DNA of 45,969 nucleotides from an uncultured Bacteroidia bacterium (GTDB lineage Bacteria > Bacteroidota > Bacteroidia > J057 > CALAJH01), in contig CALAJH010000028.1 of assembly GCA_937922655.1 (NCBI GenBank), positions 1 to 45,969 on the forward strand, in the 5' to 3' direction. Of this stretch, positions 2,306 to 33,587 are shown piece after piece. Each line of letters opens with the position of its first letter. The first letter of the stretch is position 1. Below the pieces are notes generated by a model. That model saw only the letters and a program-made list of their open reading frames with translations. It was not told the origin of the DNA and did no database searches. The position numbers were made by a program, and so were the translations under genes.

Positions 2306-2335
2306 TTTGTTTTGGCGAAAATTTTGGTAAATTTG
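2306..2335 (+). promoter_or_regulatory. Promoter of the siaB-like operon
   Basis: TTTG at 2306-2309, an 18-nt spacer, then an exact TAAATTTG at 2328-2335. The predicted start is near 2341, leaving a leader of about 50 nt before the ATG at 2395. The leader holds an eight-codon reading frame at 2357-2383. Confidence 0.65.
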
Positions 2336-2394
2336 AGCGATTTTTTGGGTGAACGCATGAGTTTTCCCATATCCACCACTTAGACGGCCCACCG

Positions 2395-2898
2395 ATGACC
2401 GATAAGCAGTTATTGTACGCCTACAACGGGGAAATGAGCAATCCCGTGCTGAACAAGATTCTAAGCACCATTCAGACCAAACTTAGCGCATTGGGGGAAA
2501 AACGCAACGTCGTCAAAAACGTTAATACGATATTGATAGAATGTTGTCAAAATCTCATTTATCACGCCAAAGACAAAGACACGTTAAAAGAGGATTTTTT
2601 CCCCAGCGTTTCGATTTATAAAGACGCGGGAGGATACCGAATTTCGACGCGCAACGTCGTTGCCGGAGAGGATGCGCAAAAACTCGAGGCCTACCTTGCC
2701 AAACTTAACGCATTTTCTCCCGAAGAACTCAAAAATTTTTACAAAGAACGGTTGACCGACGGAAAAATCAGCGCCAAAGGCGGCGGCGGTCTCGGCCTCT
2801 TGAACATGATTCGCGCTTCCAAAGACGGCAAGCTCGTCTACCGTTTCGACCCCGTCAACGAACAATACCTCATGTTTACCCTTTCGTTTCTCATGTAA
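2395..2898 (+). CDS. SiaB-family protein kinase
   Basis: A 167-residue single-domain protein with a histidine-kinase-like ATPase fold. The N box is seen in ILIECCQNLIYHA (Glu49 and Asn53, the ExxxN pattern that binds Mg-ATP), and a glycine-rich ATP lid in KGGGGLGLLNM near residue 130. This is the pattern of SiaB, a Ser/Thr kinase that phosphorylates the small protein SiaC in Pseudomonas aeruginosa. The next gene encodes a SiaC-like protein 14 nt downstream, which supports the assignment. The kinase is expected to be cytoplasmic and to work against a PP2C phosphatase; none is adjacent, but one is encoded at 32460-33587. Activity is inferred from motifs. Confidence 0.85.
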   Translation: MTDKQLLYAYNGEMSNPVLNKILSTIQTKLSALGEKRNVVKNVNTILIECCQNLIYHAKDKDTLKEDFFPSVSIYKDAGGYRISTRNVVAGEDAQKLEAYLAKLNAFSPEELKNFYKERLTDGKISAKGGGGLGLLNMIRASKDGKLVYRFDPVNEQYLMFTLSFLM

Positions 2899-2912
2899 AT
2901 TTCAAAGCATCC

Positions 2913-3302
2913 ATGAACCCACTCAGAATAGCGCCCACGGACGAAACCCCGACAGTCAATTTCATTCCCGACGAAGGAAAATTCGAAATCAGCGGCAACT
3001 CTTATCCCGAAAATTCCACCAAATTTTATTCCCCCGTCTTGGATTGGCTTAGGCGGTTTTGCGCAGAAGCCAAAAACCAAAAAATTACGCTGGACTTCAA
3101 CTTCGATTATTTCAACACCAGCTCGGCCAAATACATCCTCGAAATTTTGAGAATCCTCCAAGATTGCCAAAAAAACGGCAACGAATGCCTAGTACGCTGG
3201 CATTACTTGGAAGAGGACACCGACATGCAGGAAGCAGGCGAAGACTATCGCGATTCGATAGATTTGAATTTCGAGTTCGTCGTTCGTGAAGATACGTTGT
3301 AA
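2913..3302 (+). CDS. SiaC-family regulatory phosphoprotein (DUF1987)
   Basis: A 129-residue protein starting MNPLRIAPTDETPTV, with the family core DFNFDYFNTSSAKYILEIL. Thr69 in FNTSS aligns with the phosphorylated Thr68 of P. aeruginosa SiaC, and the adjacent serines are also present. In the characterised system the unphosphorylated form binds the stalk of the diguanylate cyclase SiaD, and SiaB kinase and SiaA phosphatase set its phosphorylation state. Here it lies between the siaB-like gene and a gene for a stalk-like membrane protein 3 nt downstream, so the target is probably that neighbour. The family call is firm; the target is inferred. Confidence 0.88.
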   Translation: MNPLRIAPTDETPTVNFIPDEGKFEISGNSYPENSTKFYSPVLDWLRRFCAEAKNQKITLDFNFDYFNTSSAKYILEILRILQDCQKNGNECLVRWHYLEEDTDMQEAGEDYRDSIDLNFEFVVREDTL

Positions 3303-3305
3303 AAG

Positions 3306-3908
3306 ATGGGGTTGAAATTGGGAAAAAAAGCCGGCGACGAGGTATTCGCCAAAGAAAACGACGATTTGGCGCGTTTTCGAAATTTGGTTGAAAACGTGGA
3401 CGTTTCCGCCGACGCCTTGCGCGAAGCCTTGCATCAATTGCTTAAAGGCTACGAAGCCATTCTCGAAGACAACAAAATCATGATACAACAAGGCGACCGT
3501 ATGCAACGCAAGCTCAAGTCCGCCTTTACCGAACTCAATCAACAAAAAGAAGAAATCGAGCGTCAGAACACGGAAATCCAAAAAATCAATCGTGAACTCC
3601 AACTCACGCTCAACGCCTTGACCAAAGCCAAAGCCAGCCGAAAAGCCCAAACCTTTACCCTCTTTTTGGCCCTCGGCCTCTTCATCGTTTCCGAAATCCT
3701 CGAAGAATTGTCGGAAACGGTACTCGACAACTTCTGGATTTCCTTCGGCGTCAAGGTTCTGCTTGTTCTTCTGCTCAAGCCTTTGGAATCGTTTTTGGAA
3801 GGCCACTTCCAGCGAAGAAACATCAACAAAGACGACCGCCACATCGTCGAACAGTATCTGAACAAATCCTCGATAGAAAAAACGGAAACGGTGGAAAAGT
3901 TTGTATGA
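3306..3908 (+). CDS. SiaD-stalk-like coiled-coil protein with two membrane helices
   Basis: A 200-residue protein. Residues 35-110 are helical: an ALHQLLKGYEAILEDN segment, then DRMQRKL and a long coiled coil rich in Gln, Lys and Glu. This resembles the stalk that precedes GGDEF domains in SiaD-type cyclases. Where a cyclase would follow there are instead two hydrophobic segments, about 115-130 and 144-160, and a basic tail. The gene starts 3 nt after the siaC-like stop and its end overlaps the TTG start of the glycosyltransferase by 8 nt. I infer that it is a membrane-bound partner of the SiaC-like protein, replacing the cyclase. An alternative is an unrelated membrane coiled-coil protein. 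Confidence 0.7.
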   Translation: MGLKLGKKAGDEVFAKENDDLARFRNLVENVDVSADALREALHQLLKGYEAILEDNKIMIQQGDRMQRKLKSAFTELNQQKEEIERQNTEIQKINRELQLTLNALTKAKASRKAQTFTLFLALGLFIVSEILEELSETVLDNFWISFGVKVLLVLLLKPLESFLEGHFQRRNINKDDRHIVEQYLNKSSIEKTETVEKFV

Positions 3909-4950
3909 CGTCGTTCATTTGACGGTCATGAACCCCGCGGGCCATGCCCGGGTATACGGTCGTTTGGCTTATCCCGCCACCTTGCGCGGGTATTCGACGG
4001 CCGTGGTGGGACGCAAAGGCACGCGAACGCCGGACAAGCCCGTCAAAATTTTTGAACTCGAATTCAGCGGGCGCGGACGGGCGTTCAACCACGTCGCCCT
4101 TACACGAAAAGCCCTCGAGATAAAAACCCGAATTTTTCACATCCACAGTCCCGAACTTTTGCCTTTGGCCGCCGTCTTGAAAAAATTGCGTGCCGCCAAA
4201 ATCGTTTACGACGTTCACGAAAATTACGCCCTCAACGCCCTGACCGCGGACGGCTACCGTTTTCGCCGACCGCTGGCATTGGCGGTTCAAAGCGTCGAAA
4301 ACGCCTTTGCGTCCGTATTGGACGGCGTGGTCTTGGCGGAAAAGGCGTTTTTAAATTTGCCTTTTTTGGCGCGGGTGAAAGGCCCCGTTGTCGTTTGTCC
4401 CAATTATTTCGCGCCTCCGACCCACGAACCGTCGCTAAGCCCCGAATTTATTGCCTCGCTCGGCGATTACCTGCTCTATACCGGCACCCTGTCCGAAAAA
4501 TGGGGAACGCAAAGCGCCATCGACGCCGCCAAGAAAATGAACGCGAAAATCGTCGTCGCGGGCCACAGCCACGACAAACGTTACGTCGAACGGCTCCAAC
4601 GCCGGGCCGACGGCGCAAACGTCGTTTTTTTCGGCGGTACCCAATACGTGGACTATGCGGATATCGTCGCCTTGATTCGCGGGTGCCGGGCGGGCTTCGC
4701 CTTGTACCACCCCGACCCCAACCTCGTTCAACGCAGGCCCACCAAATTTTTCGAGTACGCCGCCTTCGGCAAGCCCCTCTATTACACCGACGCATGGAAA
4801 AACGCCGGCGTTTACGGCGTGGCCGTTCCCTTTCCGTCCGACGATTTTTCTTTTCCGCCCCCTCCTCCGCCCCTGCCGCCCGCCCTCGAAAATCCTTACG
4901 CCCATTTCGACCCCGTGGACGAGCTTTACCAACGGCTGTTGAACGGCTAA
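3901..4950 (+). CDS. Glycosyltransferase, GT4-like (GT-B fold)
   Basis: The 349-residue product begins at TTG 3901, overlapping the previous stop. The next Met, at residue 10, would remove the first beta strand YDVVHLTVM, so the TTG is preferred. The N-terminal half resembles the acceptor lobe of GT-B enzymes, with IFHIHSPELL and IVYDVHENY as typical strands. The C-terminal half has a donor-site-like LLYTGTLSEKWG, and the end of the domain has RRPTKFFEYAAFGKPLYYTDA, which matches the K-x-E-Y-A-A-x-G-x-P signature near the nucleotide-sugar site. It should transfer a sugar in the cytoplasm for a polysaccharide or glycoprotein. The substrate cannot be told. Being translated from the same mRNA as the SiaB/SiaC genes suggests surface-polysaccharide output may be controlled by that module. 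Confidence 0.8.
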   Translation: MYDVVHLTVMNPAGHARVYGRLAYPATLRGYSTAVVGRKGTRTPDKPVKIFELEFSGRGRAFNHVALTRKALEIKTRIFHIHSPELLPLAAVLKKLRAAKIVYDVHENYALNALTADGYRFRRPLALAVQSVENAFASVLDGVVLAEKAFLNLPFLARVKGPVVVCPNYFAPPTHEPSLSPEFIASLGDYLLYTGTLSEKWGTQSAIDAAKKMNAKIVVAGHSHDKRYVERLQRRADGANVVFFGGTQYVDYADIVALIRGCRAGFALYHPDPNLVQRRPTKFFEYAAFGKPLYYTDAWKNAGVYGVAVPFPSDDFSFPPPPPPLPPALENPYAHFDPVDELYQRLLNG

Positions 4951-5065
4951 CGTTGGGAAAAAAACCGAACGCGGGCTTGGAAGCGAACGGCAAAATTTTG
5001 TCTCGGCTTCCATCATGAACAGTATCTTGTGGATATTTTAAGAAGGAGAACGCGGGACGGGTGAG

Positions 5066-5073
5066 TAATTTTG
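5066..5073 (+). promoter_or_regulatory. Bacteroidota -7 box TAATTTTG, leaderless arrangement
   Basis: An exact TAnnTTTG box ends only 4 nt before the GTG at 5078. The transcript should start at or next to the start codon. Confidence 0.6.
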
Positions 5074-5077
5074 AGGC

Positions 5078-6277
5078 GTGAAACTTTTTACGCTTTACGC
5101 GCTAGTGTTGGCGGCGTTGGGTTCGGGGATGACGGCGTGCAACGGCAAATCCAAGCACGTCACCGTTCCCGACTCGCTTGCCGTCGCCCAAGACACCACC
5201 CCGCCGCCCTTCGACCCCGGTCCGGTCGACCGGTTTTGGAACGATTTGGCCCGGATGCTCGCGGGATTGCCGCCCGATACGGCTTCGACGCTTGCGGCCG
5301 TCGAAGCCCTGCCCGCCGTTGTCGAACACCGGCGTTTTTTCGACGGCGCGTGGCAAAAAAAGACCGAAGCCTTCATCGCACCGCTGGACCAATGGGCGAC
5401 AACGGAAATCGCCAACGAACGCAAAGCCGCAAAAAACGTTCTTTACCCTTTCAGCGGCGCCGACGCCATGACGATTCACACGCTCTTCCCCAACGCCCCC
5501 CGTTACGTCATGTTCGGTTTGGAACCCGAAGGTACGCCCCCGTCCCCGGCGCTCATGACCCCGGCCGTTTTGCCCGCCAATCTCCGCAACCTCCAAATCG
5601 CCCTCGACGACATCCTGCTTTTGAGCTATTTCAAAACCATCGACATGCAATCGGACTTTCGGCGCGGCGAACTCAACGGCACGTTGCCCGTGCTTTTGGC
5701 GTTCTTGGCCCGACGCGGAAACCGCATCCTTTGGGTCGAACGCGGAATCGTCGGCCCCGAAGGCGTTTTCGACACCGCCGGCGTGAAAAAAGTCCCCATG
5801 AACCCCGACGACTCCCTCGTTACAGGCGTAAGAATACGTTTTCAGCCCGAAAACCAACCCCAAACGGTACAAGACCTCTACTATTATTCGGTCAATATCG
5901 ACGACGGACACATCTCGCGTTCCATGCGTCGGCTTTTGGCCAAATACGAGCCCTGTTATACGTATATTAAGAGTGCGTCGTATTTGATGTATTATCCTTC
6001 GTTTTCGATTATCAAATCGCATATTTTGGATTACAGCGTGTTTATCTTGCAGGAAGATTCGGGCATGCCGCTGAGTTCGTTCGACCGCAACGTTTGGGAT
6101 TTGCAGTTTTACGGCGCTTACAACCGCCCCATACCGCTTTTTGCCAACCGCTTCCAAACCGAATTGTACAAAATCTACCAAACCGACCCGTCGGTCAAGC
6201 CGCTCCCCTTCGGCATCGGCTACAACAACACGCCCGGCAAGTCTAATTTAATGGCCGCACGCAAAAAAAACCCTTAA
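5078..6277 (+). CDS. Lipoprotein of unknown function, 399 aa
   Basis: The start is GTG 5078, directly behind a promoter box; the frame opens with a hydrophobic signal and a likely lipobox in SGMTAC (Cys21), then a proline-rich linker. The mature part has a recognisable block around NVLYPFSGADAMT and FPNAPRYVMFGLEP, and later a tyrosine-rich region with ILDYSVFILQEDSGMPL. These read like a conserved domain, but I cannot name it and see no metal-binding or catalytic triad. The protein should sit on the outer face of the inner membrane or on the outer membrane. It is monocistronic: it ends in a hairpin and the M28 peptidase follows 44 nt later. Confidence 0.75.
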   Translation: MKLFTLYALVLAALGSGMTACNGKSKHVTVPDSLAVAQDTTPPPFDPGPVDRFWNDLARMLAGLPPDTASTLAAVEALPAVVEHRRFFDGAWQKKTEAFIAPLDQWATTEIANERKAAKNVLYPFSGADAMTIHTLFPNAPRYVMFGLEPEGTPPSPALMTPAVLPANLRNLQIALDDILLLSYFKTIDMQSDFRRGELNGTLPVLLAFLARRGNRILWVERGIVGPEGVFDTAGVKKVPMNPDDSLVTGVRIRFQPENQPQTVQDLYYYSVNIDDGHISRSMRRLLAKYEPCYTYIKSASYLMYYPSFSIIKSHILDYSVFILQEDSGMPLSSFDRNVWDLQFYGAYNRPIPLFANRFQTELYKIYQTDPSVKPLPFGIGYNNTPGKSNLMAARKKNP

Positions 6278-6295
6278 AAATTGGATTTTTAAGGG
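6271..6295. terminator. Perfect 11-bp hairpin over the stop codon, T-tract on the minus strand
   Basis: CCCTTAAAAAT at 6271-6281 pairs perfectly with ATTTTTAAGGG at 6285-6295 around a 3-nt loop, and contains the TAA stop at 6275-6277. A run of eight A precedes it, so on the minus strand the hairpin is followed by T8. On the plus strand no T-run follows. It is thus a good intrinsic terminator for minus-strand transcription although both flanking genes are on the plus strand. Confidence 0.55.
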
Positions 6296-6321
6296 GTGTG
6301 GGGGATTCAAAATAAAAATAC

Positions 6322-7494
6322 ATGGAAGCAAAGCGACTGATAGAGGAGGTCATAGCGCGTTTCGGACCGCGACGGGCCGCGTCCGACGCCGAACGCAAGA
6401 CACAAGAATATTTTTTGCGGACGTGGGGGGAATTTAGCGACTTCACCAAACTCCACGAGTTTCAAGCTCCTTTGCGGGCCAAGTTCGCCTTGCTCAAGCC
6501 CGTGTTTTTCGCTTACGGCCTTTCGCTGATTGCAGTGTGGATTTTTCCCGCAGGGGCGGTTTTTCTTTCGACCGCGGCGGCGCTCGCCTTCGTCGTCGCT
6601 TTTGTTATGAACTATCCGGCGTTGGATATGTTCTACAAACCCTACGGTTCGTGCAACGCCATCGCCGATTTGCCTTCGGAATTGCCACCCAAAATGACGC
6701 TCGTTCTTTCGGGCCACAGCGATTCGACCCCCGAATTTAAATGGTGGTATCGGTGGAAACGGTTCGGCCTACGGGCAATGGTGATTTCGGGTGTAGGTTT
6801 GACGCTTTATCCCTTGTTTTGCGTTTTGGCCCTGACGACGTCGGGAAGCCACGCCCAACACCCGCCGGCATGGTTGGGCTACGCGTGGCTGGCATTCGCG
6901 GCAACGGCGCCCTTGTCCGTCACGTATTGGGACATTCACGGCGAAATCGTTTCGCCCGGGGCGCAAGACAACCTTTCGGGCGTGGCGGTGGCCACGGAGG
7001 CGGGACGGGCTTTGGCCGCAGGGCCGCGCCTCAAACACGTCGCCGTGCGCATCATCGGCTTCGGCGCCGAAGAAACGGGTTTGCGCGGCTCGAGCGCCTA
7101 CGTCAAAGACCACCTCCACCGCCTCAAACAAGAAAACGTTCTCGTCCTCAATTTCGACGGCATTCTCGACGCCGACAACCTACACATTCTTACGGGCGAA
7201 GCGTTTTCTTTCGTCAAATACAACCCCAAACGCATCGCGGAGTTGGAAACGAGTTTTCGGGCCGTGGGCGCCAACGTCAAAAAAGGCGCTTTGCCCATCG
7301 GCGGAACGGACGCCGTCAGTTTCAAAAAAGCGGGACTCGACGCGCTGACGGTCGTCGGCCTACCCCTCGACCGCCTGCATCCCACCTACCACACCCGGCT
7401 CGACCAACCCCAATACGTCCAAGAAAAAGCGCTCCAACACTGCATCGAGGCGACGGTGCATTACGCCCGTACCCTCGACGCCCAATTCGATTAA
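6322..7494 (+). CDS. Membrane-embedded M28-family metallopeptidase
   Basis: A 390-residue zinc aminopeptidase-like protein. The M28 metal ligands are visible in order: His132 in SGHSDS, Asp216 in SPGAQDNLSG, Glu250/Glu251 in GAEETGLRGS, Asp279 in NFDG, and His357 in HPTYHTRLD. Unusually, hydrophobic segments occur before the catalytic part (about 61-98) and again between the first His and the bridging Asp (about 149-202), so the peptidase domain is interrupted by membrane helices. There is no signal peptide. The substrate is unknown; the family removes N-terminal residues or acts on modified peptides. The stop is directly followed by the ATG of scpB with no gap, so the two are co-transcribed. 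Confidence 0.82.
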   Translation: MEAKRLIEEVIARFGPRRAASDAERKTQEYFLRTWGEFSDFTKLHEFQAPLRAKFALLKPVFFAYGLSLIAVWIFPAGAVFLSTAAALAFVVAFVMNYPALDMFYKPYGSCNAIADLPSELPPKMTLVLSGHSDSTPEFKWWYRWKRFGLRAMVISGVGLTLYPLFCVLALTTSGSHAQHPPAWLGYAWLAFAATAPLSVTYWDIHGEIVSPGAQDNLSGVAVATEAGRALAAGPRLKHVAVRIIGFGAEETGLRGSSAYVKDHLHRLKQENVLVLNFDGILDADNLHILTGEAFSFVKYNPKRIAELETSFRAVGANVKKGALPIGGTDAVSFKKAGLDALTVVGLPLDRLHPTYHTRLDQPQYVQEKALQHCIEATVHYARTLDAQFD

Positions 7495-8022
7495 ATGGAA
7501 GTCGAAATTATCGAAGCGATACTGTTCATTTCCGAACAGCCCGTGCGTTTGGCCGAACTCGAAGAGATTTTCGCCCGTCCCGACATGGCGCCCTTTTGCC
7601 CGGGGCCGGGGGGCGTGGCCGCCGCCGTCGAAAAACTCAAAGAAAAATGCCGGCGCGACGACTGCATCTACGAACTCAGGGAAATCGCCGGCGGCTATCA
7701 ACTGCTGACCAAACCCAAGTTCGTCGCACCGATACAAACGGTCTTGGCCATGCGTCAAACCAAGAAGTTGTCGAAGGCGGCGCTCGAGACCTTGGCCGTC
7801 ATCGCTTACAAACAACCCGTAACCAAAGCCGAAATCGAACATATTCGCGGGGTCAATTCCGACTATGCCATTCAAAAACTGTTGGAAAAACAGCTCATAG
7901 AACCGGCGGGCAGGGCCGAACTGCCGGGCAAACCCCTGCTTTACCGCCCCACGGCCCAATTCATGGCCCACTTCGGCATCAACTCCCTTGCCGATTTGCC
8001 CAAACTCAAAGAATTTTCTTAA
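7495..8022 (+). CDS. scpB: Chromosome segregation protein ScpB
   Basis: A 175-residue protein with the two winged-helix domains of ScpB. The second carries the family core LSKAALETLAVIAYKQPVTKAEIEHIRGVNS. ScpB dimers bind the kleisin ScpA and regulate the SMC ATPase in chromosome condensation in the cytoplasm. The N-terminus MEVEIIEAILFISEQPV is also typical. It begins at the base after the M28 peptidase stop. No scpA or smc gene is in the window. Length and motif order are normal, and I see nothing degenerate. Confidence 0.93.
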   Translation: MEVEIIEAILFISEQPVRLAELEEIFARPDMAPFCPGPGGVAAAVEKLKEKCRRDDCIYELREIAGGYQLLTKPKFVAPIQTVLAMRQTKKLSKAALETLAVIAYKQPVTKAEIEHIRGVNSDYAIQKLLEKQLIEPAGRAELPGKPLLYRPTAQFMAHFGINSLADLPKLKEFS

Positions 8023-8050
8023 CCGCGCCGCGCCGAAACCCATGAGGGGA

Positions 8051-8083
8051 TTTTGCGAATTTGACGGCGACGCCGTAAATTAG
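8051..8083 (+). promoter_or_regulatory. Probable promoter of prfA
   Basis: TTTTG at 8051-8055, a 20-nt spacer, then TAAATTAG at 8076-8083, one base away from TAnnTTTG. The box ends 4 nt before the ATG at 8088, so the message would be leaderless. Confidence 0.45.
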
Positions 8084-8087
8084 CGTC

Positions 8088-9167
8088 ATGGATTTGTTGG
8101 AACGCTTGCCCGCCATCGAAAGTCGATTTGAGGAGGTTAATCGGCTGTTGGCCGACCCCGAAACCCTTTCCGATATGCAAAAATTAAAAAATTTAAGTAA
8201 AGAATATAAAAAACTAAACAAAATTATTCCCGTCGGCAAAAATTACCGCCTCGTCGTGGACAACATCGCCAACGCAAAAAAAATTTTGGAGGAGGAGGCG
8301 GACGAGGAATTTCGCGCCATGGCCAAAGACGAACTCGTTCAACTGTCGAGCGAGGTCGAAAAACTCGAACAAGAGCTGAAAAATCTGCTCATCCCCGAAG
8401 ACCCCGAAGACTCGAAAAACGTCGTCTTGGAAATTCGCGCCGGCACCGGCGGCGACGAGGCCGCCCTTTTCGCCGGCGACCTCTTTGAAATGTACAGACG
8501 TTACGCCGAAAAAAAAGGCTTTGAGTTTGAAGTCAACGACTATCACGAGGGTAGCGTCGGGGGATACAAAGAAATTACCGTTTCGATACGCGGCGAGGAC
8601 TGTTACGGCTTGATGAAGTTCGAATCGGGGGTACACCGCGTGCAACGAGTGCCGGACACCGAAACACAAGGACGGGTGCATACGTCGGCGGCGACCGTCG
8701 CCGTCATGCCCGAGGCCGAAGAATTCGACGTCGTACTCAACGACAACGACATTATCAAAGAAACGTTTTGTTCGTCGGGTGCGGGAGGGCAGTCGGTCAA
8801 TACCACGTATTCCGCCGTGCGTTTGACCCACGTGCCGACGGGGGTCGTCGTTTCGATGCAGAACGAGCGTTCGCAAATCAAAAATTATGAAATGGCGCTC
8901 AAAATTCTCAAAACCCGACTTTACGACCTTGAAATCGAAAAACGCAACGCCGAACAGGCGGCATTGAGAAAGTCGTTGGTTTCGACGGGCGACCGTTCGG
9001 CCAAAGTACGCACCTACAACTTTCCGCAAAGCCGGGTTACCGACCATCGCATCGGCCTGACGATTTACAATTTGCCGGCGATATTGGCGGGTGATTTGGA
9101 CGAATTTATCGAGGCCCTGCGTTTGGCGGAAAACATGGCCAAACTCGAAAATCTGCAAACGGTGTAA
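8088..9167 (+). CDS. prfA: Peptide chain release factor 1
   Basis: A 359-residue class I release factor. The stop-codon tripeptide region reads RVPDTETQG (Pro189-Asp190-Thr191), the P-x-T signature of RF1 rather than the SPF of RF2, so it should read UAA and UAG. The catalytic GGQ lies at 233-235 in SSGAGGQSVNTTYSA and triggers peptidyl-tRNA hydrolysis in the ribosome. The N-terminal helical domain is complete. No programmed frameshift is seen, as expected for prfA. The next gene starts 5 nt downstream and is probably co-transcribed. Confidence 0.96.
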   Translation: MDLLERLPAIESRFEEVNRLLADPETLSDMQKLKNLSKEYKKLNKIIPVGKNYRLVVDNIANAKKILEEEADEEFRAMAKDELVQLSSEVEKLEQELKNLLIPEDPEDSKNVVLEIRAGTGGDEAALFAGDLFEMYRRYAEKKGFEFEVNDYHEGSVGGYKEITVSIRGEDCYGLMKFESGVHRVQRVPDTETQGRVHTSAATVAVMPEAEEFDVVLNDNDIIKETFCSSGAGGQSVNTTYSAVRLTHVPTGVVVSMQNERSQIKNYEMALKILKTRLYDLEIEKRNAEQAALRKSLVSTGDRSAKVRTYNFPQSRVTDHRIGLTIYNLPAILAGDLDEFIEALRLAENMAKLENLQTV

Positions 9168-9172
9168 CGAGT

Positions 9173-9649
9173 ATGGAGGCGTGGATGAAATGGTGGGACT
9201 ATGCCGGCGTTGCGGCGTTGAGCGGATTTAAGTTCGTGCCGGGGGTGCTTGCGGCCCTCGCGTTGAAAATGAACTTTTGGGAAACGACGCTATGCACGGG
9301 CGTGGGCGGCGTGGCGGGCTCGACGTTTTTTACGTATTTTGGGAAACAAATAGCGTTGGGGATGGCGAAATTACGGGCGCGTTTTACACGTCGTCCAACG
9401 GCTCCCCCGCCCCCGAAAGCCGAAACGCTGGCACAAAAAGTTTGGCGCAAATACGGTCTGACGGGCGTGGCCGCGCTCACCCCGCCGATATTCAGTCCGC
9501 CTATCGGTACGGCCATCGCCTTGGGCTTTGGTACGCCGCCCCGTAAAATCGTCGCCCATATGGGGGTTAGTTTTGCGGTTTGGGCGCCGATTTCCGGCAC
9601 GCTCACCCTTTTCGACTACCACGCCGCTTGGAGGGCGTTTTTCGGCTGA
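9173..9649 (+). CDS. Small multi-helix membrane protein, unknown function
   Basis: A 158-residue hydrophobic protein with about four membrane segments split by a basic proline-rich loop (RRPTAPPPPKAE, around residue 75). Glycine- and proline-rich helices such as LTPPIFSPPIGTAIALGFG recall small transporter-like or DedA-like membrane proteins, but no signature is clear enough to assign. The start could be ATG 9173 or Met5 at 9185. It follows prfA by 5 nt and ends 3 nt from the convergent stop of the tape-measure-like gene. Confidence 0.65.
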   Translation: MEAWMKWWDYAGVAALSGFKFVPGVLAALALKMNFWETTLCTGVGGVAGSTFFTYFGKQIALGMAKLRARFTRRPTAPPPPKAETLAQKVWRKYGLTGVAALTPPIFSPPIGTAIALGFGTPPRKIVAHMGVSFAVWAPISGTLTLFDYHAAWRAFFG

Positions 9650-9652
9650 AAC

Positions 9653-10759
9653 TCAATCGTAAGTGCGGTAGCGCCGGTCCAAAAAACGGGTTTCGTCGCC
9701 CGACTGTTGGACAAACAATCGAAACCCTCGTTCATCGATGGCGACGTTGACGTTTTGAAAAAGACGACGTTGCATTTCGTCGGGCGGAATTTGACGACGA
9801 TGAATGGCGTCGAGAACGGCGCGGTAATCGCGGGCTTCGCGTGCGGGCGTAACGGCTTCACCCGGGGTGAGCAAAGCGGGAACGGAGTCTTTGCCCGGCG
9901 TTCCGCCTCGAACGGCCAGCGTACCTTTGGAAAATTGTTGGACGGCAACGGTGGCGGTTTGCGCCGCGCCGAGCGCCGCCACCACCCCGGCCAAAATCGG
10001 GCCGAGGGTCGGTCCGCCTTCGGCCAAAGCCTTCGTTACGGCCACGGCGGTGTTGGCGATGGTTTCGGCGACGGCGACGGCCTTTTTTACCTGTCCCGCT
10101 TTTTTGGCGGCCTCGTCGCGACGGCGTTCGTAAAGGGCGCGGTCGGCGTGCATTCGTTCGAGCGCTTGTCGTTGGTTTAGAATTTCGCGTTCGAGTCGGG
10201 CTTTTTCGTCGCCTTCGGCGTTGTTTCGGTAAGTTTCGAGTTGTCGGAGGCGTTCTTGGGCGGCGGCGATATCGGCTTGGACGGTTTGCAGGCCGTTACG
10301 GGTTTGGGCGTCGGCCTCGGCGGCGACGAGCGCCGACGCTTGCCGGGCAAGGTTCAACATAGGAGCGAAGGCGGCGGAAAAACGCACGGTTTCGTTTTGC
10401 AACGTTCGGGCGAAAGCGCGTTCACGGTCTTGGTCGATGCGTTCGAGGGCCCTTTTGGCCGCCTCTTCGCTTCGACGAAAAGCGCGAATTTGCGCTTCGC
10501 TCAGACGATTTTCCGCACGGGCAAGGTTTTGGCTCAAAGTTTCGAGTTGCCGGGCGCCGAAAGCGCCGGCGATTTGGCCCCCCAACGTCTTGGCAACATC
10601 CCCCAACTTTTCCAAACCTCCCCGCATACGTTCGCCCGCTTTTTGCGCCGCCGCAATCTTTTCCGCAATTTGTTCGTAAAGTTCGATTTGTTCGCGCAGT
10701 TCGTCGCTAATCTCCCGTTCGATTTCCCAACGGTCTTCGGTCGCGATGACGATTTCCAT
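9653..10759 (-). CDS. Phage tail tape-measure-like protein, isolated
   Basis: A 368-residue protein if it starts at Met 10759; a longer frame begins at 10774, but its first codons overlap a TATTTTG box placed 5 nt before 10759. It is almost wholly helical: Ala/Arg/Glu-rich coiled coil to about residue 225, a small hydrophobic stretch at 228-275 (KAVAVAETIANTAVAVTKAL), then GTPGKDSVPALLTPGEAV near 285-303. This last motif, GKDSVPALLTPGE, is a recurring C-terminal signature of tail tape-measure proteins in phages and phage-derived injection machines. No capsid, portal, baseplate or lysis gene is nearby. I infer a domesticated or orphan phage-derived gene. The tiny acidic gene upstream shares its strand and may be its partner. 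Confidence 0.65.
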   Translation of the reverse strand: MEIVIATEDRWEIEREISDELREQIELYEQIAEKIAAAQKAGERMRGGLEKLGDVAKTLGGQIAGAFGARQLETLSQNLARAENRLSEAQIRAFRRSEEAAKRALERIDQDRERAFARTLQNETVRFSAAFAPMLNLARQASALVAAEADAQTRNGLQTVQADIAAAQERLRQLETYRNNAEGDEKARLEREILNQRQALERMHADRALYERRRDEAAKKAGQVKKAVAVAETIANTAVAVTKALAEGGPTLGPILAGVVAALGAAQTATVAVQQFSKGTLAVRGGTPGKDSVPALLTPGEAVTPAREARDYRAVLDAIHRRQIPPDEMQRRLFQNVNVAIDERGFRLFVQQSGDETRFLDRRYRTYD

Positions 10760-32459: not shown

Positions 32460-33587
32460 ATGAAAAGCACACGTTCGATTGCCGTGGAAGTGGAAGAAAA
32501 AAATCCCCGCCCCGTCGCCGATTGGGACGGCGCCATCGCCGCCCATTTGGAGTGGCTCGACAAAATGGACCGGCTCCTTCAAGGCAAACTTTCGCTCACG
32601 CTCGACGAAGCCGTCGACCACACCCAGTGCAAACTCGGCCGTTGGCTTTACGCCTTCGGCCTCAAAGACTACGCTTACATTTCGTGCATTGACGAAATCG
32701 AACAAAAACACATCGTTCTTCACGCCACCGTTCGTGAAATTATCGACGCCTACACCAACAACCGGATCGCCAAAGCCAAAAAACTTTTCGAGGAACTTCA
32801 AGAAATATCGCGCGAGCTTGTGCGCTTGATGCAAATCGCGCAAATGGAAGACCGACTCTACGACCTCGAAGACGCCCTTGTCGTCGGTTCTAAAATACAG
32901 AAATTTCTCGGCCGACATTCCGATTTGCCGAAAAATTACTTCAAAGACGTTGTGCTTTGGAACAAGCCGCGCGACGGCGTTTCAGGCGACTTCTTCCACT
33001 GCGCCACCGAACCCAATCATTGCACCCTGTTTTTGGCCGATTGTACGGGCCACGGCATTGCCGCGGCGATGGTCGGCATTTACGTTCAAACGATTATCAA
33101 AGGCGTGCAGTCCACGTTCAAAACCGATTCCTTGCCCGAACTCGTCAAATACATCGTCGGTTACTTCCACCATCTCAAAGAAACCGAAGCCGACGAGATC
33201 GCCGCTCAACTAATCGGTTTTGAATTTGCGGCCGTTCGATTTCATCCGGCGTTGCGAAAAATCGAGTATTGCGGCGAAGGCATAGAGCTTTGGCGCGAAT
33301 ACGACGGCGAGCTAACCAAAGTTTCGCCCAATGAAAAAGGCGTGGTTTGCACCGAATTTTCTCCCGCCGTCGGGGACCGGTATTTTATGTATACCGACGG
33401 CCTCGTCGACCAATTCGGCGGCCCCGATATGCGCAAGCTGGGGCGTAAGCGCGTCCACGCCGCCATTACCGAAAACGCCGGAAATTCGCTCGAAACCCAA
33501 GTGCAGGCCCTTAAAGACGTGCTCTGGGATTGGCAACGCGGCACCCGGCAAACCGACGACGTTACCCTCGTCGCCTTCGAGGTCTAA
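32460..33587 (+). CDS. PP2C/SpoIIE-type phosphatase with N-terminal CZB zinc-sensor domain
   Basis: A 375-residue soluble protein. Residues 20-95 match a CZB (chemoreceptor zinc-binding) domain with the 3His/1Cys set: His29, Cys57 in HTQCKLGRWLY, His84 and His88. A helical linker follows. The phosphatase domain (about 160-375) has the Mg/Mn ligands in GVSGDFF (Asp177), ADCTGHG (Asp194), MYTDGLVDQ and QTDDVTLV. SpoIIE-type enzymes dephosphorylate Ser/Thr of small regulators; the SiaC-like protein at 2913 is the obvious candidate here, since SiaA of P. aeruginosa is a PP2C phosphatase acting on SiaC. That link is inference: the genes are 29 kb apart. Zinc or oxidants may be the input, as for other CZB proteins. 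Confidence 0.9.
   Translation: MKSTRSIAVEVEEKNPRPVADWDGAIAAHLEWLDKMDRLLQGKLSLTLDEAVDHTQCKLGRWLYAFGLKDYAYISCIDEIEQKHIVLHATVREIIDAYTNNRIAKAKKLFEELQEISRELVRLMQIAQMEDRLYDLEDALVVGSKIQKFLGRHSDLPKNYFKDVVLWNKPRDGVSGDFFHCATEPNHCTLFLADCTGHGIAAAMVGIYVQTIIKGVQSTFKTDSLPELVKYIVGYFHHLKETEADEIAAQLIGFEFAAVRFHPALRKIEYCGEGIELWREYDGELTKVSPNEKGVVCTEFSPAVGDRYFMYTDGLVDQFGGPDMRKLGRKRVHAAITENAGNSLETQVQALKDVLWDWQRGTRQTDDVTLVAFEV

Follow-up and report, generated by a model that had tools for sequence, protein, structure and literature searches.

A SiaB-SiaC phosphorylation switch with a predicted membrane-protein target in an uncultured Bacteroidia bacterium

Our analysis gives good support to a SiaC switch that acts on a membrane protein, here called P3, without c-di-GMP, with binding of SiaC to P3 being predicted. 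The switch is encoded in a 45,969-nt stretch of DNA from an uncultured Bacteroidia bacterium (the window, contig C28 of a 3.58 Mb source genome estimated to be 100% complete). It has been documented that the SiaABCD system of Pseudomonas aeruginosa comprises the PP2C phosphatase SiaA, the kinase SiaB, the phosphoprotein SiaC and the diguanylate cyclase SiaD, and SiaC has been characterised in Pseudomonas as a diguanylate cyclase activator (PMC7647112, PMC8457831). DUF1987 proteins have also been suggested to modulate adjacent proteins generally, a question that was left open (PMC8457831). By all sequence evidence, members of the known SiaB and SiaC families would here act on a new kind of effector; the literature searched contained nothing on Bacteroidota SiaB-SiaC-P3 systems.

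The siaB-siaC-P3 operon

The first gene (2395..2898, forward strand) encodes a 167-aa SiaB-like serine/threonine kinase (DUF6272), which matched PF19788 at E 3.7e-28, passed the NCBIfam model SiaB_fam_kinase (E 3.6e-33; 114.6 bits against a cut-off of 85) and recovered P. aeruginosa SiaB from the PDB (6kko_A, E 8.6e-10). Its ExxxN box is E49-C-C-Q-N53 (ECCQN), and its glycine-rich lid reads GGGGLGLLN. By profile and ExxxN box, the protein is assigned to the SiaB kinase family and is predicted to phosphorylate a threonine of SiaC.

After a gap of 14 nt, the second gene (2913..3302, forward strand) encodes a SiaC-like regulatory phosphoprotein of 129 aa (PF09345, E 2.7e-41, 140.4 bits against a cut-off of 24.5; PDB chain 6kko_C, E 4.7e-21). 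The phosphosite motif NTSS is formed by N68-T69-S70-S71, and Thr69 aligns with T68 of P. aeruginosa SiaC, indicating that Thr69 is the right phosphosite. The predicted fold matched the SiaC chains of 7e6g and 6kko with TM-scores, normalised to the target, of 0.91-0.94. With the SiaC equivalog model NF038265 the protein scored 93.5 bits, below the cut-off of 150, and these profiles place it as a SiaC-family protein that is not the Pseudomonas-type equivalog.

P3 (3306..3908, forward strand; 200 aa) follows siaC after 3 nt. It comprises a coiled-coil stalk, predicted to be cytoplasmic, which contains the SiaC-docking motif and the sequence DRMQRKL at residues 64-70, and a C-terminal two-helix membrane hairpin whose hydrophobic segments span roughly residues 114-135 and 139-160. 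Charge is positive before TM1, absent from the 10-residue loop and of both signs after TM2, a pattern that would fit a cytoplasmic stalk and tail. No Pfam family matched P3 above its cut-off, and the Pfam and NCBIfam matches below cut-off were chance coiled-coil similarity.

The next ORF (3901..4950, forward strand) is glycosyltransferase-like, with weak glycosyltransferase matches below the Pfam cut-off; its homologue at locus L018 passed one GT1 cut-off. Its start was placed at the TTG at 3901 because the first strand would otherwise be lost, and the starts of its homologues suggest the same position. It overlaps P3 out of frame by 8 nt (3901-3908). The first-pass annotation had called the two genes translationally fused, which overstates an ordinary gene overlap. 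The same annotation had correctly recognised the ExxxN kinase, the DUF1987/SiaC protein with Thr69 as phosphosite, and a third gene with the DRMQRKL stalk and two membrane segments; its gaps of 3-14 nt and 8-nt overlap also stand, and only its start of 2328 for the first gene needed to be moved to 2395.

We looked for P3 homologues in 60 related genomes and scanned 84,980 species genomes with a degenerate pattern. With contigs found by both routes merged and locus L076, found via the hairpin, added, 23 distinct loci encoding a two-TM P3 were obtained, including four Marivirga species. The results showed that siaB-siaC lies immediately upstream of P3 in 20 of them, with a siaC-P3 gap of 0-147 nt, while the P3 genes of the other three (L026/L061, L057 and L062) stand alone without an adjacent siaC and keep the motif. 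These findings support P3 as a stable partner of siaB-siaC, and the co-occurrence of siaB-siaC-P3 with the docking motif exceeds chance. Homologues consistently lacking siaB/siaC, which had been named beforehand as evidence against the proposal, were therefore not what we observed.

The orphan P3 genes of L026/L061 and L062 follow a gene for an OmpA/PD40/TPR protein, and in Marivirga (L056) P3 is convergent with a PorP/SprF gene. P3 may have a connection with type IX secretion or gliding, for which the evidence is thin.

A SiaC-docking stalk in P3 and other siaC-adjacent proteins

The crystal structure of the SiaC-SiaD complex shows the SiaD stalk residues S82, D83 and Q86 in contact with T68 of SiaC and the residues around it (PMC8457831). 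The putative SiaC-docking stalk of P3 (3405..3557, forward strand; residues 34-84) has the core K57-IMIQQ-G63-D64-R65-M66-Q67-RKL. Within the docking motif [S/G]D-x-x-Q, the [S/G], D and Q are the most conserved positions, and they are the ones that contact SiaC in SiaD. In Azospirillum, Tistrella, Methylobacterium, Paraburkholderia, Caballeronia and Variovorax plasmids, the gene immediately downstream of siaC encodes a protein with the same motif N-terminal to a GGDEF or histidine-kinase domain.

From these proteobacterial siaC-adjacent cyclases and kinases alone, a first docking profile of 52 residues was built by ungapped alignment. The 34 P3 sequences, some of whose contigs were counted twice, scored 9.2-33.3 bits (10.9-33.3 for those other than the window's), and the best of 723 decoy ORFs scored 3.7 bits. 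The window P3 was the lowest of the family at 9.2 bits and has the most diverged motif (QQGDRMQ versus SVSDRLQ in most). Since the best of 6800 shuffled P3s reached 9.4 bits, the window motif on its own does not outscore the best shuffle.

A whole-genome search with a profile free of P3 is a stronger test than the score of the window motif. For this second profile, only siaC-adjacent enzymes of Proteobacteria and Bacteroidota were used. In the source genome it detected P3 at E 7.1e-6 and a paralogue on contig C33 at E 9.9e-9, with the next match at E 3.0, and both of these stalks sit directly downstream of siaC. Nearly all significant matches in 11 further genomes were P3s. Taken with the first profile, these results bear out the earlier description of the stalk as SiaD-like and support P3 as the carrier of a true SiaD-type SiaC-docking stalk, to which SiaC is predicted to bind.

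A PDB search with P3 or with its family profile returned coiled-coil noise only and did not recover SiaD; the link was therefore made via the stalks of siaC-adjacent enzymes. Several SiaC residues at SiaD-contact positions differ from those of P. aeruginosa (D79 to R80, R103 to D104, L107 to A108 and D114 to S115), so we do not claim an identical interface. When SiaC and P3 were modelled as one read-through fusion, the prediction (mean pLDDT 84.6, pTM 0.45) contained the SiaC fold and long helices and was neutral with regard to docking.

The docking stalk is not confined to P3. Beside siaC it also heads histidine kinases, GGDEF cyclases, SpoIIE PP2C phosphatases and class III adenylate/guanylate cyclases, and it occurs in stand-alone proteins of 77-99 aa. 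Examples of the latter lie right after siaC at L127, L128, L139 and L144 and have no output domain; they could be adaptors or decoys. Of 395 genomes from the phylum, 22 had SiaC, 18 had the docking stalk and 17 had both (hypergeometric p 1.7e-24). Because this p value ignores kinship and the profile came partly from the same genomes, the telling number is that the stalk occurred in 1 of the 373 genomes without SiaC. With one docking site heading many output proteins, the switch looks general-purpose.

Cyclases, phosphatases and the membrane hairpin

No GGDEF domain was found in P3 or anywhere in the source genome, indicating that the switch operates with no diguanylate cyclase that we could detect. 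Among the eight P3 genomes tested, only G215 contained GGDEF, and the source genome and six others had none. The earlier phrase "without c-di-GMP" is thus supported as far as synthesis by known enzymes is concerned.

No siaA-type PP2C gene adjoins siaB in the window, which leaves the locus short of a SiaABCD operon. The source genome has 27 SpoIIE domains as candidate phosphatases, and one of these 27 belongs to a CZB-SpoIIE PP2C (32460-33587) with an N-terminal chemoreceptor zinc-binding (CZB) domain, encoded 29 kb from siaC. Complete operons were found in relatives. At L076, in G215, a single REC-PP2C-SiaB fusion is followed by SiaC and P3, and at L023 a Reg_prop-Y_Y_Y-PP2C sensor is followed by SiaB, SiaC and P3. 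Both operons put P3 where SiaD stands in SiaABCD. In L076 (1075-9039), the genes for REC-SpoIIE-DUF6272, SiaC and P3 head flgB-flgC-fliE-fliF-fliG; flgB, fliE and fliF were named by eye, and FliG and a rod protein by Pfam.

A paralogous cluster of the source genome (L044, C33:38000-52000) also contains a PP2C. At its positions 4573-10484, a GAF/PAS-PP2C gene precedes tandem siaB-siaC-siaB-siaC and a gene for a one-TM P3-like stalk protein; the tandem with such a stalk gene behind it recurs at L027, L028 and L029. The first SiaB of L044 has a degenerate glycine lid, SGLTRLGIID, and one of the two kinases may therefore be inactive. The fourth SiaC of the genome (G000:C5:199462-199818, L045) has no docking stalk that we found nearby.

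The membrane hairpin of P3 (3618..3818, forward strand; residues 105-171) has SE130 in TM1 and K150 and K158-P159-L-E161 in and after TM2. In the alignment, E130, K150 and P159 are invariant, and K-P-[IL]-E follows TM2. The last 70 residues of the membrane part match the C-termini of a receiver protein (L030), of TPR proteins and of Reg_prop/Y_Y_Y sensors. A first hairpin profile, built from ten P3s and the receiver protein, gave E 2.0e-10 and 4.5e-10 for TPR proteins, and a second-round profile detected three further proteins of the source genome that were absent from it (E 2.2e-10, 7.3e-6 and 6.0e-5). Five receiver, TPR or beta-propeller sensor proteins of the source genome carry the hairpin, and 45 matches were counted in the relative G046 and 18 in G056; weak matches in L115 and L116 were dropped as chance. 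No Pfam family covered the hairpin in the proteins scanned. In every example read, its end lies 3-23 residues ahead of the C-terminus or of a second sensor unit fused behind it.

At L177-L185 (G046, G056 and G044), dozens of TPR or Reg_prop/Y_Y_Y sensors end in the hairpin and not in a kinase, and some ORFs consist of two sensor-hairpin units in tandem. Hairpin sensors were also present where no P3 was detected (e.g. in G044), indicating that they do not need P3. These Bacteroidota sensors share with P3 an FE/SE in TM1, a K/N in TM2 and P[ILV][EH] thereafter, whereas their input is predicted to be extracytoplasmic and is not a SiaC-docking stalk. We infer a signalling output role for the hairpin. 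A bolder and tentative suggestion is that it may be a Bacteroidota output module for membrane signalling that has so far gone undescribed, driven from inside by SiaC-docking stalks or receivers and from outside by TPR or beta-propeller sensors, with a common membrane partner, and that SiaC may be a general phospho-adaptor.

Proposed mechanism, alternatives and known partner switches

In our view, P3 is most likely the target of a threonine-phosphorylation switch of SiaABC type that the operon encodes. SiaB would phosphorylate SiaC on Thr69, and an unlinked PP2C in the role of SiaA would remove the phosphate. Unphosphorylated SiaC would bind [S/G]D-x-x-Q in the parallel coiled-coil stalk of P3, as SiaC binds SiaD, and the bound SiaC might stabilise or re-register the P3 dimer, while phosphorylation would block binding. 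The change in the stalk would then pass into the two-helix membrane hairpin, the presumed output.

P3 could instead serve as a membrane anchor or as a sink, with a hairpin that does no more than tether SiaC (and SiaB) near sensor phosphatases, while the real output is another SiaC target. Such a role would suit a protein with a short hairpin and no enzymatic domain, given that many PP2C and sensor proteins are probably membrane-bound. However, no SiaC target of that type was detected in the genome beyond P3 and its paralogue, the carriers of the only two docking stalks identified there, and the hairpin is conserved beyond hydrophobicity (E130, K150, P159) and common to REC, TPR and propeller sensors, which would be unexpected for a mere anchor. 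We therefore regard this reading as unlikely.

In a second alternative, which takes up the first-pass idea of an effect on surface polysaccharide synthesis, P3 acts mainly on the overlapping glycosyltransferase and thereby on the polysaccharide. Translational coupling across the 8-nt overlap is likely, and the order P3-glycosyltransferase recurs at L017, L018 and L019. These three loci and the window are nevertheless the only ones with this glycosyltransferase downstream of P3, and the four genomes belong to one order. Most P3 loci have no adjoining glycosyltransferase; their neighbours include ParA/ParB-like (L020), rRNA methyltransferase-like (L025, L060) and flagellar genes (L076), and the glycosyltransferase showed no docking motif among the genome-wide profile matches. 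Polysaccharide synthesis as the general function of the switch was rejected because this neighbour is limited to four genomes; control of the glycosyltransferase as the main role of P3 appears quite improbable, and the gene may be a local operon addition. What survives of the first-pass proposal is a membrane stalk protein that SiaC would control, with a docking stalk, a siaB-siaC partner and no GGDEF in the genome; the polysaccharide output is not supported.

That P3 is an unrelated coiled-coil membrane protein behind siaBC, with a DR-Q match that is coiled-coil noise, is very improbable: coiled coils do match one another easily and the window motif by itself is degenerate, but the genome-wide specificity of the P3-free profile, which largely refutes chance, the adjacency kept over many families and the separation of the P3 family from shuffles all argue against it.

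The switch that we favour, acting on P3, resembles SiaABCD in its siaB-siaC-effector order, ExxxN kinase and NTSS phosphosite, and P3 resembles SiaD in its N-terminal coiled-coil stalk with the S/G-D-x-x-Q docking motif. It differs from SiaABCD in the missing adjacent siaA and the GGDEF-free genome, and P3 differs from SiaD in ending in a membrane hairpin instead of GGDEF and in having one recognisable docking motif, not two. SpoIIA and RsbRSTV are STAS/anti-sigma partner switches, in which phosphorylation of a small STAS-like protein, controlled by a kinase and a PP2C, likewise controls a binding partner. In contrast to these, SiaC is a DUF1987 protein related to STAS in structure only, and its target is a coiled-coil stalk and not an anti-sigma kinase. 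HsbA-HsbD and BgrV-BgrR are further partner switches (PMC8457831).

As a sequence feature, the docking site can now be searched for across whole genomes to predict SiaC targets. The same switch was seen with five or more kinds of output, and in one clear case no diguanylate cyclase could be detected. The analysis also exposed a recurrent, Pfam-less membrane hairpin, which in some genomes forms the end of dozens of sensor proteins. If the tentative view of this hairpin as an output module is true, the SiaC-docking stalk would be a unit pluggable onto kinases, cyclases, phosphatases and the hairpin.
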